In this document: piece after piece, positions 6,954-64,000 of the stretch
Layout: every line of letters begins with the position of its first letter
How positions within the stretch are numbered: the first letter of the stretch is position 1
Assembly: GCF_016888005.1 (NCBI RefSeq)
Contig: NZ_JAFDVE010000014.1
Coordinates: 1 to 64,000, forward strand
From: Phycicoccus sp. CSK15P-2
Lineage (GTDB): Bacteria; Actinomycetota; Actinomycetes; Actinomycetales; Dermatophilaceae
Reading direction: 5' to 3'
Length of the DNA: 64,000 nt
Notes under the pieces: model-generated
Database searches by the model: none
What the model was told of the DNA's origin: nothing
What the model saw: only the letters and a program-made list of their open reading frames with translations
Program-made: the position numbers and the translations under genes

Positions 6954-6965
6954 CGGCACGTCCAC

Positions 6966-7050
6966 CGACAGGGGAGCGCTCCGGCGCTGAGAGTGCGGTC
7001 CGCCGCAGACCCTCGAACCTGATCCGGTTAGCACCGGCGATAGGGAGTCG
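6966..7050 (+). ncRNA. TPP (THI-box) riboswitch
   Basis: All conserved blocks of the thiamine pyrophosphate aptamer are present in order: GGGGAGC, GCTGAGAGTGCGG, CCGCAGACCC, GAACCTGATCCGGTTAG, CACCGGCG, TAGGGAG. The ends CGAC (6966-6969) and GTCG (7047-7050) close the P1 stem. The only Shine-Dalgarno-like run for the next gene (AGGGAG, 7042-7047) is inside the aptamer. Ligand binding should therefore block translation directly, without a separate expression platform. It regulates the YkoE/YkoDC transporter. Confidence 0.95.
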
Positions 7051-7769
7051 TGAATTCCACCATGTCCTCGTCCACGTCAACCGTCGAGGCGCCGGTCCGC
7101 CGGCGCTCGATCACCGCGACCCGCCCGCTCATGGGATGGCGCACCGTCGACCTCCTCACCGCGGCCCTCATCGGCGCGGCCCTCGGCCTCGTCTTCTGGG
7201 GATGGGGCGTCTTCTACACCGGCCCGCTCACCGCGCTGCAGATCGGGTACGCCCCGCTCATGGGCCTGTTCGTCGGCCCCTGGCTCATGGCGGGTGTGCT
7301 CGGCGGGCTCGTCGTCCGCAGGCCGGGCGCGGCGCTGTTCTGCGAGGTCGTCGCGGCGCTCGTCTCGATGATCCCCGGCACGACGTGGGGCGTCGGCGTC
7401 CTCTTCGCCGGGATCCTCCAGGGGCTCGGCGCCGAGCTCGCGTTCGCGCTCCTCGGCTACCGGTTCTTCGGGGTCGCCGCGGCCGCGTTCGCGGGTGCGC
7501 TCGCCGCTCCGCTCGAGTGGCTGTACGAGACCTTCAGCTTCCCCGAGTCCTGGGCCGACGTGCCCGTGCTGTCGGCGTTCGCGGGCAGCGGCGGCTACTA
7601 CGGCGAGTGGGAATGGCCCGAGAAGCTCGCGTACCTCGGGACGATGACGGCCTCGGGTGTCGTCCTCGCCGGCGTCGTCGCCTGGCTGCTGACCCGGGCC
7701 CTGGCCCGCGCCGGTGCGCTGTCGGCGTTCCCGCCGGGGCAGGAGGTCCGCGAGTCACGCGCGGTCTGA
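7050..7769 (+). CDS. ykoE: YkoE-type ECF transporter S component (thiamine precursor uptake)
   Basis: A hydrophobic protein of about 235-239 residues with at least five TM segments. It has the YkoE features WRTVDLLTAALIGAALG, the GPLTALQIGYAPLMG region and SMIPGTTWGVG. YkoE is the substrate-binding subunit for hydroxymethylpyrimidine/thiamine in ECF transporters. It sits directly behind the TPP riboswitch and just upstream of the ATPase/EcfT gene. Two starts are possible: GTG at 7050 (2 nt after AGGGAG and within P1) and ATG at 7062 (14 nt after). The ATG is more attractive structurally. Confidence 0.85.
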   Translation: MNSTMSSSTSTVEAPVRRRSITATRPLMGWRTVDLLTAALIGAALGLVFWGWGVFYTGPLTALQIGYAPLMGLFVGPWLMAGVLGGLVVRRPGAALFCEVVAALVSMIPGTTWGVGVLFAGILQGLGAELAFALLGYRFFGVAAAAFAGALAAPLEWLYETFSFPESWADVPVLSAFAGSGGYYGEWEWPEKLAYLGTMTASGVVLAGVVAWLLTRALARAGALSAFPPGQEVRESRAV

Positions 7770-7773
7770 CACC

Positions 7774-10038
7774 GTGACCGTGACCCGGGCCACCCGGGGC
7801 CACGTCGAGGTCCGTGGCCTCACGTGGCGCCCCTACGGCCGCCGGGAGCCCGTCCTGCGGGAGCTCGACCTCACGCTGACCCCCGGTGAGCGGGTGCTGC
7901 TCGTCGGGCCCTCGGGCTCGGGCAAGTCCACCCTGCTGCGTGCGCTGGCCGGGCTGCTCGGCTCCGTGGAGGCGGGCGAGCTCTCCGGCACGGTGACGCT
8001 CGACGCCGACGCCCCCGGTGCACGTCCGGGGGCGGTGGGCCTCGTGCTCCAGGAGCCGGGGGCGGGGGTCGTCGCGGCGACCGTCGCGCGGGACGTCGCC
8101 TTCGGCCTCGAGAACGTCGGGACACCGCGCGAGGCGATGCCCGCGACCGTCCGGCGCTCGCTCGACGCCGTTGCGCTCGGCGACCTCGACCTCGACACGC
8201 CCACGTCGGCGCTCTCCGGCGGCCAGACCCAGCGGCTGGCGCTCGCCGGCACGCTCGCCCTCGACCCCTCGCTCGTCCTGCTCGACGAGCCGACGGCGAT
8301 GCTCGACCCCACCTGCGCCGCCGAGGTGCGCCAGGCCGTCGCCCGCGTGGCCGAGCGGGGCGACCGCACGCTCGTCGTCGTCGAGCACGTCCTCGAGCCG
8401 TGGGTCGACCTCGTCGAGCGGCTCGTCGTGCTCTCGGCGGAGGGCGCGGTCGTCGCGGACGGGCCGGTCCGCGACGTCCTCGCCGAGCAGCGCGACCAGC
8501 TCCTCGCGATGGGCGTCTGGGTGCCCGGCGCCGACGTCCCGGACCCGGCCGCCGTCGACCCCGACCTCTTCGCGACCTCCGACGTGCACGGCAGCTCGTT
8601 GCGGGCGCAGCGGTTCTGCGTGGAGCGCACCACCCGGCTCCTCGACGGCACCGCCCGCCGTCGCTGGGCCGCCGTGCTCGACGAGCCGCTGGACGCCGTC
8701 CCGGGCACGCTGACGGCGCTCGTCGGGCGGAGCGGGTCGGGCAAGTCGACGCTCCTGCAGGCGCTCGCGGGCTTCCTCGGGAGCGTCCCGGCCGGAGCGG
8801 TGTACGTCCCCGGACCGGACGGCTCCGACGCCGAGCCGGGCGACCTCGACGCCCCGGCCCTCGCCCGCACCCTCGCGTGGGTGCCGCAGTGGGCGAGCTC
8901 GACGATCGTCGCGCCGACGGTCCTCGACGAGGTCCTCGCCACGTCCCGGGCCACCGGTGACGTCGACGACCGCACCCAGGAGCGCGCGCGAGGCGTCCTC
9001 GCCGCCCTCGGGCTGGCCCGTCTCGAGGGAGCCGACCCGCGGGAGCTGTCCGGCGGCGAGCAGCGCCGGCTCGCGGTGGCGTCCGCCGTCCTGCACGGTC
9101 CGCCGGTCCTTCTCGCCGACGAGCCGACGGTGGGCCAGGACCGGCACACGTGGGCGGCCGTCGTCGGGCTCGTCGCGGCCTACCGCGCCGCAGGGGGAGC
9201 GGTCGTGGCGGCCACGCACGACGCCGCGGTCGTCGCCCGGGCCGACACCGTGCACCAGGTGCGGCCACCAGAGCGTCCGCCCGCGCCGCCACCGTCCCGT
9301 CCACCTCTCGTCGCCCGGTGCGGGCCGCTGGCGCTGCTCGCCGGCGCGTTCCTCGGCATCCCCGCCGGGGTGGTCTCGCCCCACTGGACGACGAGTCTCG
9401 CGGTCCTCGCGGTGCAGGTCGTCCTCGCCGCCGTGGGCCTGGCGGCGCCGGGGGAGGGGCCGGCGCCGGGGGAGGGGCCGGCGCCGCCACGACGGCTCCG
9501 GACCGTCGCACTCCGGATGGCCCCGGGGCTGCTCGCCGCGCTCTCCGTGGGCTGGTCCACCTGGTGGCTCGCCGGGCACGACGTCGACGCCGCGCTGACG
9601 GTCGCGCTCCGGGTGCTCGTCATCGTCCTGCCGTCCGCGGTGCTCGTCCCCTGGATCGACCCGGACCGGCTCGGCGACCATCTCGCGCAGCGGCTGGGGC
9701 TGCCCGACCGTCCGGTCGTCGCCACCGCGTCGGCCCTCCAGCGGGTGCACACCTTCGGGGCGGTGCTCTCCGAGATCGAGCGGGCCAGACGGGTGCGGGG
9801 CATCGGGGTGTCCACCCGCCGTCCGGCGACGGTCGTCGCGCACCTCTCGGCCCTGACGATGGGGCTGCTCGTGCGCACCCTGCGCGCGGCCGCCGAGCTC
9901 GCGGTCGCGATGGACGCCCGGGGCTTCGCCACCGCCCAGCGGCGCACCTGGTGGGCCGCGGCGCCGTGGCGCCGGCGGGACACGGCGCTGCTCGTCCTCG
10001 CCACCCTGCCGCTCGTCGTCGCGCTCACGTGGGGCTGA
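7774..10038 (+). CDS. Fused ECF transporter ATPase (two ABC domains) plus EcfT permease, YkoDC type
   Basis: A 754-residue three-part fusion. Domain 1 has Walker A GPSGSGKST (about 43), LSGGQTQR and LVLLDEPT. Domain 2 has GRSGSGKST (about 319), LSGGEQRR and LLADEPT. The last 240 residues are a hydrophobic EcfT-like permease with several TM segments and the coupling region EIERARRVRGIG. A Pro/Gly/Glu linker with an 18-bp tandem repeat lies just before the permease TM region. The GTG start at 7774 is 4 nt after the ykoE stop. With YkoE it makes a complete importer under TPP control. YkoD and YkoC are commonly separate genes, so the fusion is notable. Confidence 0.85.
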   Translation: MTVTRATRGHVEVRGLTWRPYGRREPVLRELDLTLTPGERVLLVGPSGSGKSTLLRALAGLLGSVEAGELSGTVTLDADAPGARPGAVGLVLQEPGAGVVAATVARDVAFGLENVGTPREAMPATVRRSLDAVALGDLDLDTPTSALSGGQTQRLALAGTLALDPSLVLLDEPTAMLDPTCAAEVRQAVARVAERGDRTLVVVEHVLEPWVDLVERLVVLSAEGAVVADGPVRDVLAEQRDQLLAMGVWVPGADVPDPAAVDPDLFATSDVHGSSLRAQRFCVERTTRLLDGTARRRWAAVLDEPLDAVPGTLTALVGRSGSGKSTLLQALAGFLGSVPAGAVYVPGPDGSDAEPGDLDAPALARTLAWVPQWASSTIVAPTVLDEVLATSRATGDVDDRTQERARGVLAALGLARLEGADPRELSGGEQRRLAVASAVLHGPPVLLADEPTVGQDRHTWAAVVGLVAAYRAAGGAVVAATHDAAVVARADTVHQVRPPERPPAPPPSRPPLVARCGPLALLAGAFLGIPAGVVSPHWTTSLAVLAVQVVLAAVGLAAPGEGPAPGEGPAPPRRLRTVALRMAPGLLAALSVGWSTWWLAGHDVDAALTVALRVLVIVLPSAVLVPWIDPDRLGDHLAQRLGLPDRPVVATASALQRVHTFGAVLSEIERARRVRGIGVSTRRPATVVAHLSALTMGLLVRTLRAAAELAVAMDARGFATAQRRTWWAAAPWRRRDTALLVLATLPLVVALTWG
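9444..9485 (+). repeat. 18-bp in-frame tandem repeat in the transporter linker
   Basis: The 18-bp unit GGCGCCGGGGGAGGGGCC occurs twice in a row and begins a third time, encoding APGEGP repeats. It lies in the flexible linker between the second ATPase and the permease helices, so copy changes would alter linker length by six residues without a frameshift. Confidence 0.85.
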
Positions 10039-17586: not shown

Positions 17587-18276
17587 ATGCTCGAGGCCTA
17601 CACGCTGCTCGGGGCGCTCGCGGCGGCCACCGACGACATCCAGCTGTCGACGCTCGTGACGGGAAACACCTACCGGAACCCTGCGCTCCTCGCCAAGCAG
17701 GTGACCACCCTCGACGTCGTCAGCGGCGGTCGTGCCGTGCTGGGCATCGGTGCCGGATGGTTCGAGCTCGAGCACCAGCAGCTGGGGTTCGAGTTCGGCA
17801 CCTTCACCGACCGCTTCAACCGGCTCGGGGAGGCCCTCTCCATCATCGAGCCGATGCTCCGCGGCGAGCGTCCGACCGTGCACGGCGACTGGTACCGCAC
17901 GGAGTCCGCGACGAACGAGCCGCGGCTGCGCGACGACCTGCCCATCCTCGTCGGGGGCGGTGGGGAGAAGAAGACGTTCAAGTACGCGGCGCGGCACGCT
18001 GCCCACCTCAACCTCATCTGCAACGCCTCGGAGATCCCGCGCAAGCTCGACGCCCTCGCGCAGCGGTGCGAGGAGGAACGGCGGGACCGGTCCACCCTGG
18101 AGACGAGCTTCCTCGCCTTCCTCGTCGTCGACGAGGACGGTGACGCCGCCCGCCGGATGCTCCGGGACAGCCTCGCGGCGCGGGGGGTCGACGGGCTGGT
18201 CTTCAACATGATCCAGAACGGGCACGTGCCCGGCGCGGTGCACGCGGCGGCGGCGCTCGGCCCGCTGGTCGGCTGA
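17587..18276 (+). pseudogene. LLM class F420-dependent oxidoreductase, missing its N-terminus
   Basis: The 229-residue frame matches the middle and end of luciferase-like F420 oxidoreductases: EAYTLLGALAAATDDIQLSTLV, YRNPALLAKQVTTLD, GRAVLGIGAGWFELEH and DLPILVGGGGEKKT. Recognisable similarity begins upstream of the ATG at about 17566 (GIGRPDEPM) in the same frame as the patatin gene, directly after its TGA. The first 70 or so residues (strand 1 and the substrate/F420 pocket) are absent. No Shine-Dalgarno or -10 element is seen. A deletion probably fused the 3' part of the gene to the patatin gene, so an active enzyme is unlikely. Confidence 0.75.
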
Positions 18277-58407: not shown

Positions 58408-59439
58408 GTGCCCATCGCAACGCCCGAGGTCTACGCCGACATGCTCGACCGGGCCAAGAACGGCTCGTTCGCCTACCCGGCCATCAACATCACGTCGAGC
58501 CAGACCGTCACGGCCGCGATCCGCGGCTTCGCGGAGGCCGGCTCCGACGGCATCATCCAGGTCTCCACCGGCGGTGGCGAGTACGCCTCCGGCTCGACGA
58601 TCAAGGACATGGTCACCGGCGCGAAGGCGCTCGCCGCGTACGCCGAGGAGGTCGCCAAGAACTACCCGGTGAACATCGCGCTGCACACCGACCACTGCCC
58701 GAAGGACAAGCTCGACGCGTTCGTCCGTCCGCTGCTCGCCGCGTCGGCCGAGCGGGTCGAGGCCGGCGGCCTGCCCATCTTCCAGTCGCACATGTGGGAC
58801 GGCTCGGCCGTACCGCTCGACGAGAACCTCCAGATCGCCGAGGAGCTCCTCGCGCAGTGTGCCGCGGCGAAGGTGATCCTCGAGATCGAGGTCGGCGTCG
58901 TCGGCGGCGAGGAGGACGGCGTCGAGAACGAGATCAACGAGAAGCTCTACTCCACGCCTGAGGACGCCATCGCCACGGTCAAGGCGCTCGGTGGCGGCGA
59001 GAAGGGCTACTACATGACCGCTCTCACCTTCGGGAACGTCCACGGCGTCTACAAGCCGGGCAACGTCAAGCTGCGCCCCGAGGTCCTCAAGGCCGCCCAG
59101 GAGGCCGCCGCGAAGGAGCTCGGCCTCGGTGCCGACGCCAAGCCGTTCCACCTGGTCTTCCACGGCGGCTCCGGCTCGCTGGCCGAGGAGATCTCGGCCG
59201 CGGTCGACTACGGCGTCGTCAAGATGAACGTCGACACCGACACCCAGTACGCCTTCACCCGGCCGGTCGCCGGCTACATGATGGAGAACTACGCGGGCGT
59301 CCTGAAGGTCGACGGCGAGGTCGGCAACAAGAAGCAGTACGACCCGCGCGCGTGGGGCAAGGTGGCCGAGGCCGCGATGGCCCAGCGCGTCGTCGAGGCC
59401 TGCGAGAACCTCCGCTCGGCGGGTACGCACCCCGCCTGA
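58408..59439 (+). CDS. fbaA: Class II fructose-bisphosphate aldolase
   Basis: A 343-residue zinc aldolase of glycolysis/gluconeogenesis. ALHTDHCPKDKL holds the catalytic Asp and zinc His (about 95), LTFGNVHGVYKPG and FHGGSGS the other ligands and phosphate site. FAYPAINITSSQTV near the N-terminus is typical of class IIA enzymes. GTG start with GAGGAG at good spacing. A long terminator follows. Confidence 0.96.
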   Translation: MPIATPEVYADMLDRAKNGSFAYPAINITSSQTVTAAIRGFAEAGSDGIIQVSTGGGEYASGSTIKDMVTGAKALAAYAEEVAKNYPVNIALHTDHCPKDKLDAFVRPLLAASAERVEAGGLPIFQSHMWDGSAVPLDENLQIAEELLAQCAAAKVILEIEVGVVGGEEDGVENEINEKLYSTPEDAIATVKALGGGEKGYYMTALTFGNVHGVYKPGNVKLRPEVLKAAQEAAAKELGLGADAKPFHLVFHGGSGSLAEEISAAVDYGVVKMNVDTDTQYAFTRPVAGYMMENYAGVLKVDGEVGNKKQYDPRAWGKVAEAAMAQRVVEACENLRSAGTHPA

Positions 59440-59563: not shown

Positions 59564-59923
59564 TCAGTGGCCCGCGGTGTGCTCGTTGACGGCTCGACGC
59601 AGCAACGCGAGGTTGGTGTTGGCGCGGTTCGCGGCGACGTAGATGAACGTCGAGCGGTTGTCCATCACCTTGATGAGGTGGAGCTGGTCGCTGAGCGTGA
59701 GGAGCATGTCCTCGAGCTCGGAGTTCAGGTGGAGGGCCTCCATCGTCTTGAACTTGCCCTTGACCATCTCGCTGTTGTAAGCGCTCGCGACGTCGAGGTC
59801 GAAGTCGGGGACGCTGGTCCGGGACGCCAGCGACATGCCGGAGTCCAGGTCGACGATCGACGCGCCGACGAAGCCGGTGACGTCGTTCTGGATGCCTTCG
59901 AGGATCTTGCTGTAGTCGGCCAT
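59564..59923 (-). CDS. Roadblock/LC7 domain protein (short form)
   Basis: A 119-residue protein with a roadblock/LC7 fold: ILEGIQNDVTGFVGASIVDL, SGMSLASRT, and LSDQLHLIKVMDNRSTFIYVAANRANTNLALLRRAV. Roadblock proteins act as partners or GAPs of small GTPases (MglB with MglA). An excellent AAGGAG sits 6 nt before this ATG. The same frame is open upstream to 60208, so a longer product is also possible. It is the last gene of a GTPase/roadblock operon. Confidence 0.85.
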   Translation of the reverse strand: MADYSKILEGIQNDVTGFVGASIVDLDSGMSLASRTSVPDFDLDVASAYNSEMVKGKFKTMEALHLNSELEDMLLTLSDQLHLIKVMDNRSTFIYVAANRANTNLALLRRAVNEHTAGH

Positions 59924-60208
59924 TTCTCTCCTTGGTGGTCGAGCGTCTGCTCGAGGTGGGTGTTCCTGAGGGTGGTGCTGGTCGTGCTCTTCGGTTTTTC
60001 CCTGCGAGTCTGTGACGGGTTCCGCCGGGTCAGGGTGCTCCGGCGGTCGGGCGGGTGTGTCCTCGGTGACGTCCTCCGATGGGTCGGTGGGTGTCTCCTC
60101 GGTGGCGGGGCCGGGTCGGAGTGGGACGAGAGCGGGCAGGTCGCTGGGCGTCACCCCGGCGTCGGCCGTGGTGACGGTCCACCCCAGCGCCCGCAGCCAC
60201 TTGCTCAT
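59564..60208 (-). CDS. Roadblock protein, possible N-terminally extended form
   Basis: A frame starting MSKWLRALGWTVTTADAG begins at an ATG that overlaps the stop of the upstream roadblock gene (ATGA coupling) and continues with no stop into the short form. The result is a 214-residue protein: about 35 ordered-looking residues, about 60 Pro/Glu/Asp/Thr/His-rich residues, then the roadblock domain. The coupled start argues the frame is translated; the strong internal site argues that the short form is made too. Codon GC3 falls in the linker, so a short separate peptide cannot be excluded. Confidence 0.45.
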   Translation of the reverse strand: MSKWLRALGWTVTTADAGVTPSDLPALVPLRPGPATEETPTDPSEDVTEDTPARPPEHPDPAEPVTDSQGKTEEHDQHHPQEHPPRADARPPRREMADYSKILEGIQNDVTGFVGASIVDLDSGMSLASRTSVPDFDLDVASAYNSEMVKGKFKTMEALHLNSELEDMLLTLSDQLHLIKVMDNRSTFIYVAANRANTNLALLRRAVNEHTAGH

Positions 60209-60705
60209 CGCCGGTCGGCACTCAGGCGCTCGTGGATACGGGTAGCGGTCTGACGGAGCTGGACGAGCAGCAGGCCGAGCTGGATGCCCTCGGCGTACGC
60301 GCCGAGGACGAAGTTGCCGAGCCCGGGCAGCCGGACGGCCACGAGGACGGTGTGGTCGTCGCCGGACGAGATCTGGACGGTGGCGTTGTCCATGCCCCGG
60401 TCGTCCATGACCTTGCGGTGGGCCGCCGCGACGCTGAACACCGAGCTCGTCAGCGCGGACAGGCGACCCACGTCGTTGTCTCGGACCCCGAGGGTGCACA
60501 CGTTGAGGCCGTCCGAGGTGCAGAAGAGCAGCGCCTTGATGTGCGAGGAGTGCTCGGCGAACTCGGTGAGCACCGGCTGGACGAACAGACCGAGGCTGCG
60601 GGACAGGATGTCCCAGTCCTGGGCGATGTGCTCCTCGATGCCGTTGATCGCGTCGTCCGACCCCGAGTGCGACCCGAGGGAGGTCCCCGGGTGCTGCTGG
60701 GTCAT
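60205..60705 (-). CDS. Second roadblock/LC7-like protein
   Basis: A 166-residue protein. An N-terminal 25-residue Ser/Gly/His tail leads to a roadblock-like fold: HIKALLFCTSDGLNVCTLGV, LSALTSSVFSVAAAHRKVMD, VQISSGDDHTVLVAVRLPG and FVLGAYAEGIQLGLLLVQLR. Its ATG overlaps the stop of the GTPase gene (TGATG). It is diverged from the other roadblock protein in this operon, so the two could form a heteromer on the GTPase. Confidence 0.8.
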   Translation of the reverse strand: MTQQHPGTSLGSHSGSDDAINGIEEHIAQDWDILSRSLGLFVQPVLTEFAEHSSHIKALLFCTSDGLNVCTLGVRDNDVGRLSALTSSVFSVAAAHRKVMDDRGMDNATVQISSGDDHTVLVAVRLPGLGNFVLGAYAEGIQLGLLLVQLRQTATRIHERLSADRR

Positions 60706-61310
60706 CAGGAGCTCACTTCGGCACCGACTCGCGGGCCGACCGCGGCGTCGATGGCGCGCTGGACGCTCTCGCGGTCGCGGGGGTCCGCGGCCACGAGGGG
60801 GATGCCCGGCGCGTACCGGTCGAGCAGCTCCCGGTAGTCCTCGAGCGCGGGGTGGTCCCCCGGCTCGTCGAGTCGCGTCACCGCGACGGTGATCCGGTCG
60901 TAGACGCCCTTGTCCTTGGCGCCGAGGTAACGAAGCCACTCGTCGGCCTCGTCGATGGCGTAGTCGTTCTGGCCGAAGAGCCACAGCACGAGACGCAGCT
61001 TCTGGGAGACGGCGGTCGACCGGACCATCTCGAAACGGACCTGTCCCGGTGTGCCATAGACGGCGACCTTCGCGCCACCGTCGTCCCGGTGCCACTCGCC
61101 GTAGTCGATACCGACCGTCGTCGTGCGCTTGCGGTCGACGCTCCCGTCCTTGTTCTTGCTGCGGCGCGGTGGCGCCCGCCGGACGTCGGTGTCGGCGACC
61201 TCGACGTCCGAGACGGCCCGTACGGCGGTCGTCTTGCCGACCCCGAGGGGTCCGCAGAAGACCACACGTTCCTGTTGACCGGTACCGACTACCGGCTTGA
61301 GTCGGCCCAC
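60705..61310 (-). CDS. Small Ras-like GTPase (MglA/conservon GTPase type)
   Basis: A 201-residue GTPase. G1 is FCGPLGVGKTT (about 19-28), G2 Thr in KRTTTVGIDYGEW (about 62-73), G3 VYGTPGQVRFEM (about 85-94), and G4 TRLDEP (about 145). G3 lacks the usual Asp of DxxG (Gly here), as in some MglA-type proteins. G5 is weak. It resembles the GTPases of streptomycete cvn loci and MglA. The GTG start follows AAAGGGG. It leads an operon with two roadblock proteins. Confidence 0.85.
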   Translation of the reverse strand: MGRLKPVVGTGQQERVVFCGPLGVGKTTAVRAVSDVEVADTDVRRAPPRRSKNKDGSVDRKRTTTVGIDYGEWHRDDGGAKVAVYGTPGQVRFEMVRSTAVSQKLRLVLWLFGQNDYAIDEADEWLRYLGAKDKGVYDRITVAVTRLDEPGDHPALEDYRELLDRYAPGIPLVAADPRDRESVQRAIDAAVGPRVGAEVSS

Positions 61311-61373: not shown

Positions 61374-61485
61374 ATCATGAAAGGCCTCGACGCGAGTTCG
61401 TCCAAACAGACGAGGGTCCTCACCTCGACGGCCCAGGTGGCATACCCGGACGATCATGCCCCATCTGCTCGTCTACCGTGACGGA

Positions 61486-61893
61486 ATGAGTTCCGCCGAC
61501 CTTCTCGGGATCCCGCCCACCCATCTCCCCGACGACCCGGCCGCGAGCCTGCTGGATGCCGGCGTGGCCCCGGACGAGGTCGCCGCGGCCCATCCGGCGT
61601 CCTCGCTCGCCTGGGCCGTGCTCGCCGAGGACGCCTTGGCCGACGACCGGGTCGTGGAGGCCTATGCGTACGCCCGGACCGGGTACCACCGGGGTCTGGA
61701 CGCCCTCCGCCGCAGCGGGTGGCGGGGGCAGGGGCCGGTGCCGTGGGAGCACGTCCCGAACCAGGGCTTCCTCCGCGCGCTGGCCGCGCTCTCCCGCGCG
61801 GCGGGGCTCGTCGGGGAGGAGGACGAGCGCCACCGGTGCGCGGAGTTCCTCCGGGCGTCGAGTGCGACGGGGGCGCGCGAGCTGGGTCTGTGA
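61486..61893 (+). CDS. DUF3151 family protein
   Basis: A 135-residue actinobacterial DUF3151 protein. Blocks LPDDPAASLLDAGVAPDEVAAAHPASSLAWAVLAE, YAYARTGYHRGLDALRRSGWRG and WEHVPNQGFLRALAALSRAAGL are clear. The family is uncharacterised but conserved beside fba and purA. ATG 61486 is preferred over 61456 because TACCGT ends 6 nt ahead (leaderless). A strong terminator follows. Confidence 0.88.
   Translation: MSSADLLGIPPTHLPDDPAASLLDAGVAPDEVAAAHPASSLAWAVLAEDALADDRVVEAYAYARTGYHRGLDALRRSGWRGQGPVPWEHVPNQGFLRALAALSRAAGLVGEEDERHRCAEFLRASSATGARELGL

Positions 61894-62990: not shown

Positions 62991-64000
<1,010 letters not shown>

Follow-up and report, generated by a model that had tools for sequence, protein, structure and literature searches.

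A recurrent MglA-type GTPase module outside the conservons in Phycicoccus, probably a signalling switch

The MglA-type GTPases best studied in bacteria are those of the myxobacteria and of the conservons. In the accessible part of PMC4316618, the G3 motif GTPGQ is common to MglA Groups 2-5, a deviant G4 accompanied by an Asp-Ala-Arg G5 is described for Groups 2 and 3, and an Asp-Gly pair is given for the MglB partners of Groups 2-5. Neisseria is assigned to Group 3 in the portion of the literature consulted, as is the mgl system of Snodgrassella, in which one mglA is found with two coupled and one orphan mglB, the orphan MglB having lost its GAP activity yet binding coupled MglB (PMC11112851, as far as its accessible part goes). 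A survey of the literature by title found no work describing the actinobacterial trio presented here, comprising a GTPase and two partner proteins referred to as RBA and RBB.

The locus and its three proteins

The window, i.e. the whole stretch of 64,000 nucleotides that was analysed, is part of the 3.9 Mb genome (G000) of Phycicoccus sp. CSK15P-2. The trio sits on the minus strand between fba and a DUF3151 gene, with purA beginning beyond the latter at 63066, outside the module:

60705-61310, minus strand: GTPase, an MglA-family small GTPase of 201 aa with a GTG start (start not proven), assigned from motifs and trees
60205-60705, minus strand: RBA, an MglB/CvnB-type roadblock protein of 166 aa, assigned from its family profile and Asp-Gly pair
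59564-59923, minus strand: RBB, a second, divergent and probably roadblock-like protein of 119 aa, with AAGGAG upstream, assigned from profile-profile comparison
59924-60208, minus strand: in-frame extension of RBB, a possible long form comprising MSKWLRALGW and a Pro-rich acidic stretch; its coding status is doubtful
58408-59439, plus strand: fba, class II fructose-bisphosphate aldolase, flanking and outside the module
61456-61893, plus strand: DUF3151 gene, flanking and outside the module

The three adjacent minus-strand genes picked out by the sequence-only reading are indeed present, and the trio recurs in two other Phycicoccus genomes: in HDW14 it is flanked by fba and DUF3151 as in the window, and in P. 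sonneratiae it lies beside DUF3151 and purA, the contig ending just past RBB. The clustering of the three genes is not a matter of chance. GC3 is of the coding type in the GTPase, RBA and RBB (0.89, 0.95 and 0.97, the median of 62 window genes being 0.95), and dN/dS against P. sonneratiae is approximately 0.28, 0.75 and 0.34 in the same order. Overlapping start and stop codons had been proposed to join all three genes; the overlap exists between the GTPase and RBA, where the stop TGA (60707-60705) and the start ATG (60705-60703) share one base, and probably does not extend to RBB, whose likely start lies further downstream. The start of the GTPase was taken as the GTG at 61310 rather than position 61265 favoured by the gene caller, because the shorter form cuts residues that are invariant in relatives. 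Elsewhere in the window, a TPP riboswitch (6960-7063, 63.6 bits) precedes what appear by eye to be transport genes, and a tRNA-Val of 94 bases was called at 18070-18163; the latter overlaps an apparent coding gene on the opposite strand and is possibly a false call.

Single-sequence searches yielded little, both for the GTPase and RBB against the PDB and for all three proteins against NCBIfam and Pfam, and profiles were therefore needed. For the GTPase, Pfam returned ATP_bind_1 (2.9e-6) and a sub-threshold Roc match, and the family profile matched Rab structures (best 8.6e-6). Its motifs read GPLGVGKT in G1, TTTVG in the switch, GTPGQ in G3, VTRLD in a degenerate G4, and ADPR in G5; over 14 aligned rows, the window included, little or no variation is seen in the P-loop, the TTxG switch, GTPGQ, or DPR. 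The sequence hallmarks of the MglA superfamily, namely the P-loop of G1, the conserved Thr of G2, and GTPGQ in G3, are all present, as is a linked MglB-type roadblock gene. The clear G1 noted from the sequence alone is real, but the clear G4 noted with it is not: Thr-Arg is invariant in the same 14 rows, but only 5 of them (window included) retain the Asp that follows two positions later. A G3 without Asp, at first taken to be unusual, is ordinary for the superfamily given that GTPGQ is published for Groups 2-5, and the conservon GTPase of the same genome carries the same motif. The notable feature is instead the G4 Asp, which has been lost from much of the clade as well as from its Pseudomonadota neighbours; with G4 degenerate, GTP binding by the GTPase, and with it base specificity, is putative.

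RBA is established by its family profile as an MglB/CvnB-type roadblock protein. Taken alone, it has no roadblock match in Pfam or NCBIfam; its profile matches roadblock structures (7f8m at 1e-9, cvnB5 at 6.3e-5) and aligns at 99% probability to a set which itself finds the CvnB5 and MglB structures. A Robl_LC7 match was obtained in 16 of 23 family members, and the Asp-Gly pair is invariant (23/23 aligned rows). RBA lies directly downstream of the GTPase in all 35 GTPase-bearing loci, comprising 23 from actinobacteria (window included) and 12 from Pseudomonadota, 14 of the 35 having supplied no row to the RBA profile and some of these being close kin of rows that are in it.

RBB is likely to be a divergent roadblock missed by Pfam, with a putative fold. 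The window protein gave no roadblock match in Pfam or NCBIfam, only weak matches to unrelated families; among 20 diverse members of its family, Pfam reported Robl_LC7 in four (best 0.0041) and LAMTOR5 in two (best 0.0009), with unrelated families matching one or two of the 20 members each at similar levels. Against the PDB, the best matches of an RBB profile were roadblocks at non-significant values (0.13 and above), and profile A4 gave no match below 0.95; the narrow profile A5 had no match to RBA, and the broader profile A7 matched the MglB set. In profile-profile comparison, the RBB family aligned over its full length to pooled roadblocks with an E-value of 3.5e-5 and a probability of 72%, and to the MglB set alone with 4.7e-4 and 33%, the best of 30 column shuffles serving as control for the MglB comparison reaching 0.032; the corresponding E-values were 0.024 for RBA and 0.64 for the GTPase. 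The earlier description of two different roadblock proteins thus stands for RBA on its family profile, and for RBB it is the profile-profile alignment, with Pfam and NCBIfam silent, that speaks for it.

The start of RBB is most likely the ATG at 59923, which is preceded by a strong ribosome site, AAGGAG, lies close to where BLAST alignments of relatives begin, and is 285 bases below the ATG overlapping the stop codon of RBA; RBB is therefore probably not joined to RBA by overlapping codons. The open reading frame from this upper ATG (60208) runs in frame with RBB, and the extension frame is open in five of the six loci with RBB directly below RBA (the window, P. sonneratiae, G130, G064, and Dermacoccus), HDW14 being the sixth, where the extension is out of frame. 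By eye, the first residues of the extension share a basic-aromatic pattern that closes with Gly and a hydrophobic residue, and in frame 0 none of 500 shuffles reached the likeness of its first 25 residues over the six loci; frames 1 and 2, used as controls, were weaker than frame 0, yet exceeded most shuffles at several lengths. The GC3 of the extension, 0.74, falls below the value of 0.88 that marks the lower 5% bound for the 62 window genes. Given this value, and with ribosome site and similarity both pointing to ATG 59923, the acidic Pro-rich N-terminal arm once suggested for RBB found no support; as a minor long form it is possible but doubtful.

Relatives, neighbours and phylogeny

The GTPase was detected in 15 of 186 genomes of the family (E 1e-15), in 3 of the 12 genomes of the genus, and in 2 of 246 genomes in an even draw of the phylum (E 1e-25), these two being the host genome itself and G064. 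The closest matches come from same-genus genomes, P. sonneratiae and Phycicoccus sp. HDW14. A TAG lies inside the GTPase match of HDW14, the Dermacoccus match has one near its N-terminal end, and genome G009 carries RBB alone at the same place (L044:7881-8240), the GTPase and RBA not being there. The solitary RBB of G009 and the TAG of HDW14 imply that the module may be dispensable, or that RBB may also act alone.

RBB is present in 14 of the 23 actinobacterial GTPase loci and lacking in nine. A second MglB-like gene was found upstream in six of these nine, as against none of the 14 with RBB (hypergeometric 0.0008, uncorrected for relatedness, several rows being close kin), and three of the six, from Millisia, Gulosibacter, and a Micrococcales MAG, also carry a protoglobin gene (Pfam). 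Other actinobacteria have RBB next to an MglB-type gene in 12 distinct loci that show no GTPase within ~1.5 kb; of eight such or similar regions of 11-13 kb, L279, L280, and L282 have MglB and RBB without a GTPase, and L283, L285, and L286 do contain one. In two large actinobacterial genomes (L279:5225-7626 and L280:5227-7549), a gene for a protein of 290-330 aa and an MglB-type gene lie between two RBB-family genes, and no GTPase was seen in the 13 kb covered. Relatives were sampled to the extent of 80 of 220, 52 of those 80 being Acinetobacter, in which RBB, GTPase, and MglB occur together in 46 of 52 loci; the 12 other Pseudomonadota loci among the 80 gave no RBB-family match. Twenty gammaproteobacterial loci contained MglB in 19, RBB in 6 (14 without), and protoglobin in 3 cases, and a plasmid of Comamonas odontotermitis bears GTPase, roadblock, and RBB in a row, the RBB being annotated as a hypothetical protein.

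Beside the core, some relatives carry further roadblock, protoglobin, PAS, OmpA-domain, Hsp90-family, or unknown proteins (the neighbour labels gyrA/gyrB, ECF or other transport, and 'membrane protein' were assigned by eye), and the words 'minimal' and 'stand-alone', once applied to the module, do not survive this survey. The protoglobin, PAS, OmpA, and Hsp90-family ATPase neighbours, none of which stands beside the window copy, suggest exchangeable inputs. Protoglobin genes near MglA-type GTPase and roadblock genes (L067:6163-6771, L072:6868-7488, L064:2516-3115, L188:5744-6301, L192:2747-3337, L197:2791-3354, and L276:2048-2596) were encountered in Thermus brockianus as well as in Actinomycetota and Gammaproteobacteria; the link to a heme protein is a recurrent one.

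An MglA/MglB-like module outside the conservon context was what the sequence-only reading had proposed, a linked kinase or DUF742 gene in relatives being named as one form of counter-evidence, and both the neighbour survey and the phylogeny against CvnD uphold the proposal. Neither the sensor kinase CvnA (phmmer with the kinase of L059, E 1e-4) nor the DUF742 protein CvnC (query from the L059 conservon) was found in any of 36 loci, the window included, which span 4.7 to 16.6 kb (12 kb for the window piece) and of which some are cut by contig ends. Both were recovered from the control locus, a complete ordinary conservon of the same genome (L059:7522-12278, contig C42), where Pfam confirmed HATPase_c, Robl_LC7, DUF742, and ATP_bind_1. 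In a first tree, 19 actinobacterial GTPase rows fall on one side of a branch (84/94), eight Burkholderiales-type rows adjoin them (84/92), and 19 conservon rows stand apart (100/99). For a second tree, two long gamma rows were taken out, and a Neisseria fragment, Thermus, Deinococcus, two more actinobacterial rows, and the Comamonas plasmid were put in. Here the 19 actinobacterial rows alone were weakly held (60/95), but a larger set joining them to the eight Burkholderiales-type rows, one gamma row, and the Comamonas plasmid was held (98/86), separate from the group with the Neisseria fragment (100/94) and from the conservons (100/100, 20 rows). These placements come from midpoint-rooted trees with long branches, in which published Groups 4 and 5 and Myxococcus MglA are not sampled. 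Judged by phylogeny and gene content, the module is not a conservon: it is related to the conservons, is less common than they are, and has kin among distant bacteria.

Possible function and the alternatives

Gene order, protein families, conservation, and co-occurrence together reveal a real and recurrent G-protein module that is not a conservon and is probably a signalling switch. The reading preferred here, which we consider moderately likely, is an MglA/MglB-type signalling switch in which the GTPase is combined with RBA as its constant partner and RBB as a second regulator. The MglA-family P-loop GTPase would work with both proteins as a switch; RBA, the constant partner, would probably be its activating protein, and RBB would pair with RBA or the GTPase and either carry the input or tether the complex, a regulator comparable to MglC beside MglB in Myxococcus. 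We infer nucleotide switching, a GAP role for RBA, a regulator role for RBB, and signalling rather than pilus polarity, the division of labour between RBA and RBB being modelled on the Snodgrassella orphan MglB because, in the accessible part of PMC11112851, that protein binds coupled MglB without GAP activity of its own. A further arrangement common to actinobacteria and some Pseudomonadota (for the RBB part, Acinetobacter), of which a second roadblock-like family missed by domain libraries forms part, could show how such switches exchange inputs, and it opens to experiment the question whether a single GTPase carries a hetero-complex of two dissimilar bacterial roadblocks.

A bolder and rather doubtful proposal is that of a separate class of G-protein module, in which a divergent MglA losing its base-specificity Asp would sit on a platform made of two roadblocks, RBA and RBB, the RBB family having been overlooked by domain libraries, and exchangeable inputs including globins and an Hsp90-family ATPase would take the role that the kinase plays in conservons. 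With that Asp being lost, the GTPase of such a class would possibly not be strictly GTP-specific.

More specific, and unlikely as matters stand, is a redox or gas-signalling switch with exchangeable sensors, whose window copy would receive its signal via RBB from a protein encoded elsewhere, perhaps an Hsp90-family ATPase. Protoglobin genes do lie near the GTPase in Millisia, Gulosibacter, the Micrococcales MAG, 3 of the 20 gammaproteobacterial loci, and Thermus brockianus, but they account for just 7 of the 117 loci scanned, two of the 7 being one and the same contig, and no globin or sensor stands beside the window copy. In G130 (L045:5036-9905), an N-extended RBB-like gene, an Hsp90-family gene whose end overlaps the GTPase start, the GTPase, RBA, RBB, and a gene for a protein with a weak globin match follow one another in one direction, although the globin match (E 0.039) is under the Pfam cut-off. 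The Phycicoccus genome itself has an Hsp90-family gene divergent from an N-extended RBB-like gene on another contig (C34; L061:6363-8078 and 8460-8762), near genes that by eye resemble gyrA and gyrB, and the pair is also found in G001 and G009. An RBB-like gene apart from RBB occurs in 15 of 186 family genomes, 7 of these 15 having it beside an Hsp90-family gene or fragment; the GTPase is present in just 3 of the 15, which speaks against the redox or gas reading, and the Hsp90 link across the family is weak.

Membership of the published MglA Group 3, as an actinobacterial counterpart of the beta- and gamma-proteobacterial mgl operons with one or two MglB, is likewise improbable. It would account for one GTPase with two roadblock-type partners, a deviant G4, an Asp-x-Arg G5, and GTPGQ, all in line with the accessible part of PMC4316618, and the Group 3 operons of Wuichet and Sogaard-Andersen (2014) resemble the module in pairing one GTPase with one or two roadblocks and in their deviant G4. 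In the second tree, however, the Neisseria GTPase fragment groups with gammaproteobacterial rows (100/94), not with the clade of the module (98/86), and gene calls at the window and Phycicoccus loci showed nothing like the linked Group 3 gene for a receiver-like protein of unknown function beside the module. The module has VTR in place of NKxD and DPR in place of DAR. It is not clearly a Group 3 system.

That the module sets polarity for gliding or for type IV pili, in the manner of the Myxococcus system, is far less probable. Homology to MglA/MglB invites it, and mutation of the Snodgrassella Group 3 orphan mglB has been linked to altered pilus-dependent motility (accessible part of PMC11112851), but of the 186 family genomes only four gave a PilT match (E 1e-20), none of them among the 15 GTPase carriers, which makes pilus polarity unlikely; for retractile pili, the polarity role proposed from the sequence alone is largely refuted. 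Least credible of all is an eroded conservon, in which the kinase and DUF742 genes were lost and a CvnB-CvnD pair was left: superfamily and GTPGQ are indeed common to both, but the GTPase lies outside the conservon clade in both trees, the 36 loci yielded neither gene, the order of GTPase then roadblock is unlike that of a conservon, and a full conservon exists elsewhere in the genome.

Comparison with known systems

The signalling switch preferred here shares with MglA/MglB of Myxococcus xanthus (with MglC) an MglA-family GTPase, an MglB-type roadblock, and a further protein that is a roadblock there and probably one here. It differs in its G3, which is GTPGQ as against the TVPGQ of Group 1 (accessible part of PMC4316618), in its degenerate G4, and in the absence of PilT from the 15 family carriers. 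The Ragulator and Rag GTPases offer an idea only, that of small GTPases on heteromeric roadblocks, with LAMTOR5 touched by 2 of 20 RBB members (best E 0.0009) and no membership claimed.

Outside Actinomycetota, the nearest GTPases among those listed are encoded in operons of Comamonadaceae and other Pseudomonadota, e.g. Comamonas badia (L086) and Rubrivivax (L084), represented by eight tree rows. The GTPase is followed by RBA in 12 of 12 of these loci, as in the module, whereas an RBB-family match was obtained in none of the 12. Instead, wherever upstream genes could be called, they encode a protein of ~125 aa and a middle protein of 180-300 aa; the former resembles RBB by eye, with no Pfam match in the two copies scanned. 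Compared with the conservons (AGPS, CvnA-D), the module stands apart in having neither kinase nor DUF742, in its separate GTPase clade, and in a second partner of another family, and is alike in being actinobacterial, in pairing a GTPase with an MglB-type roadblock, and in its GTPGQ motif.
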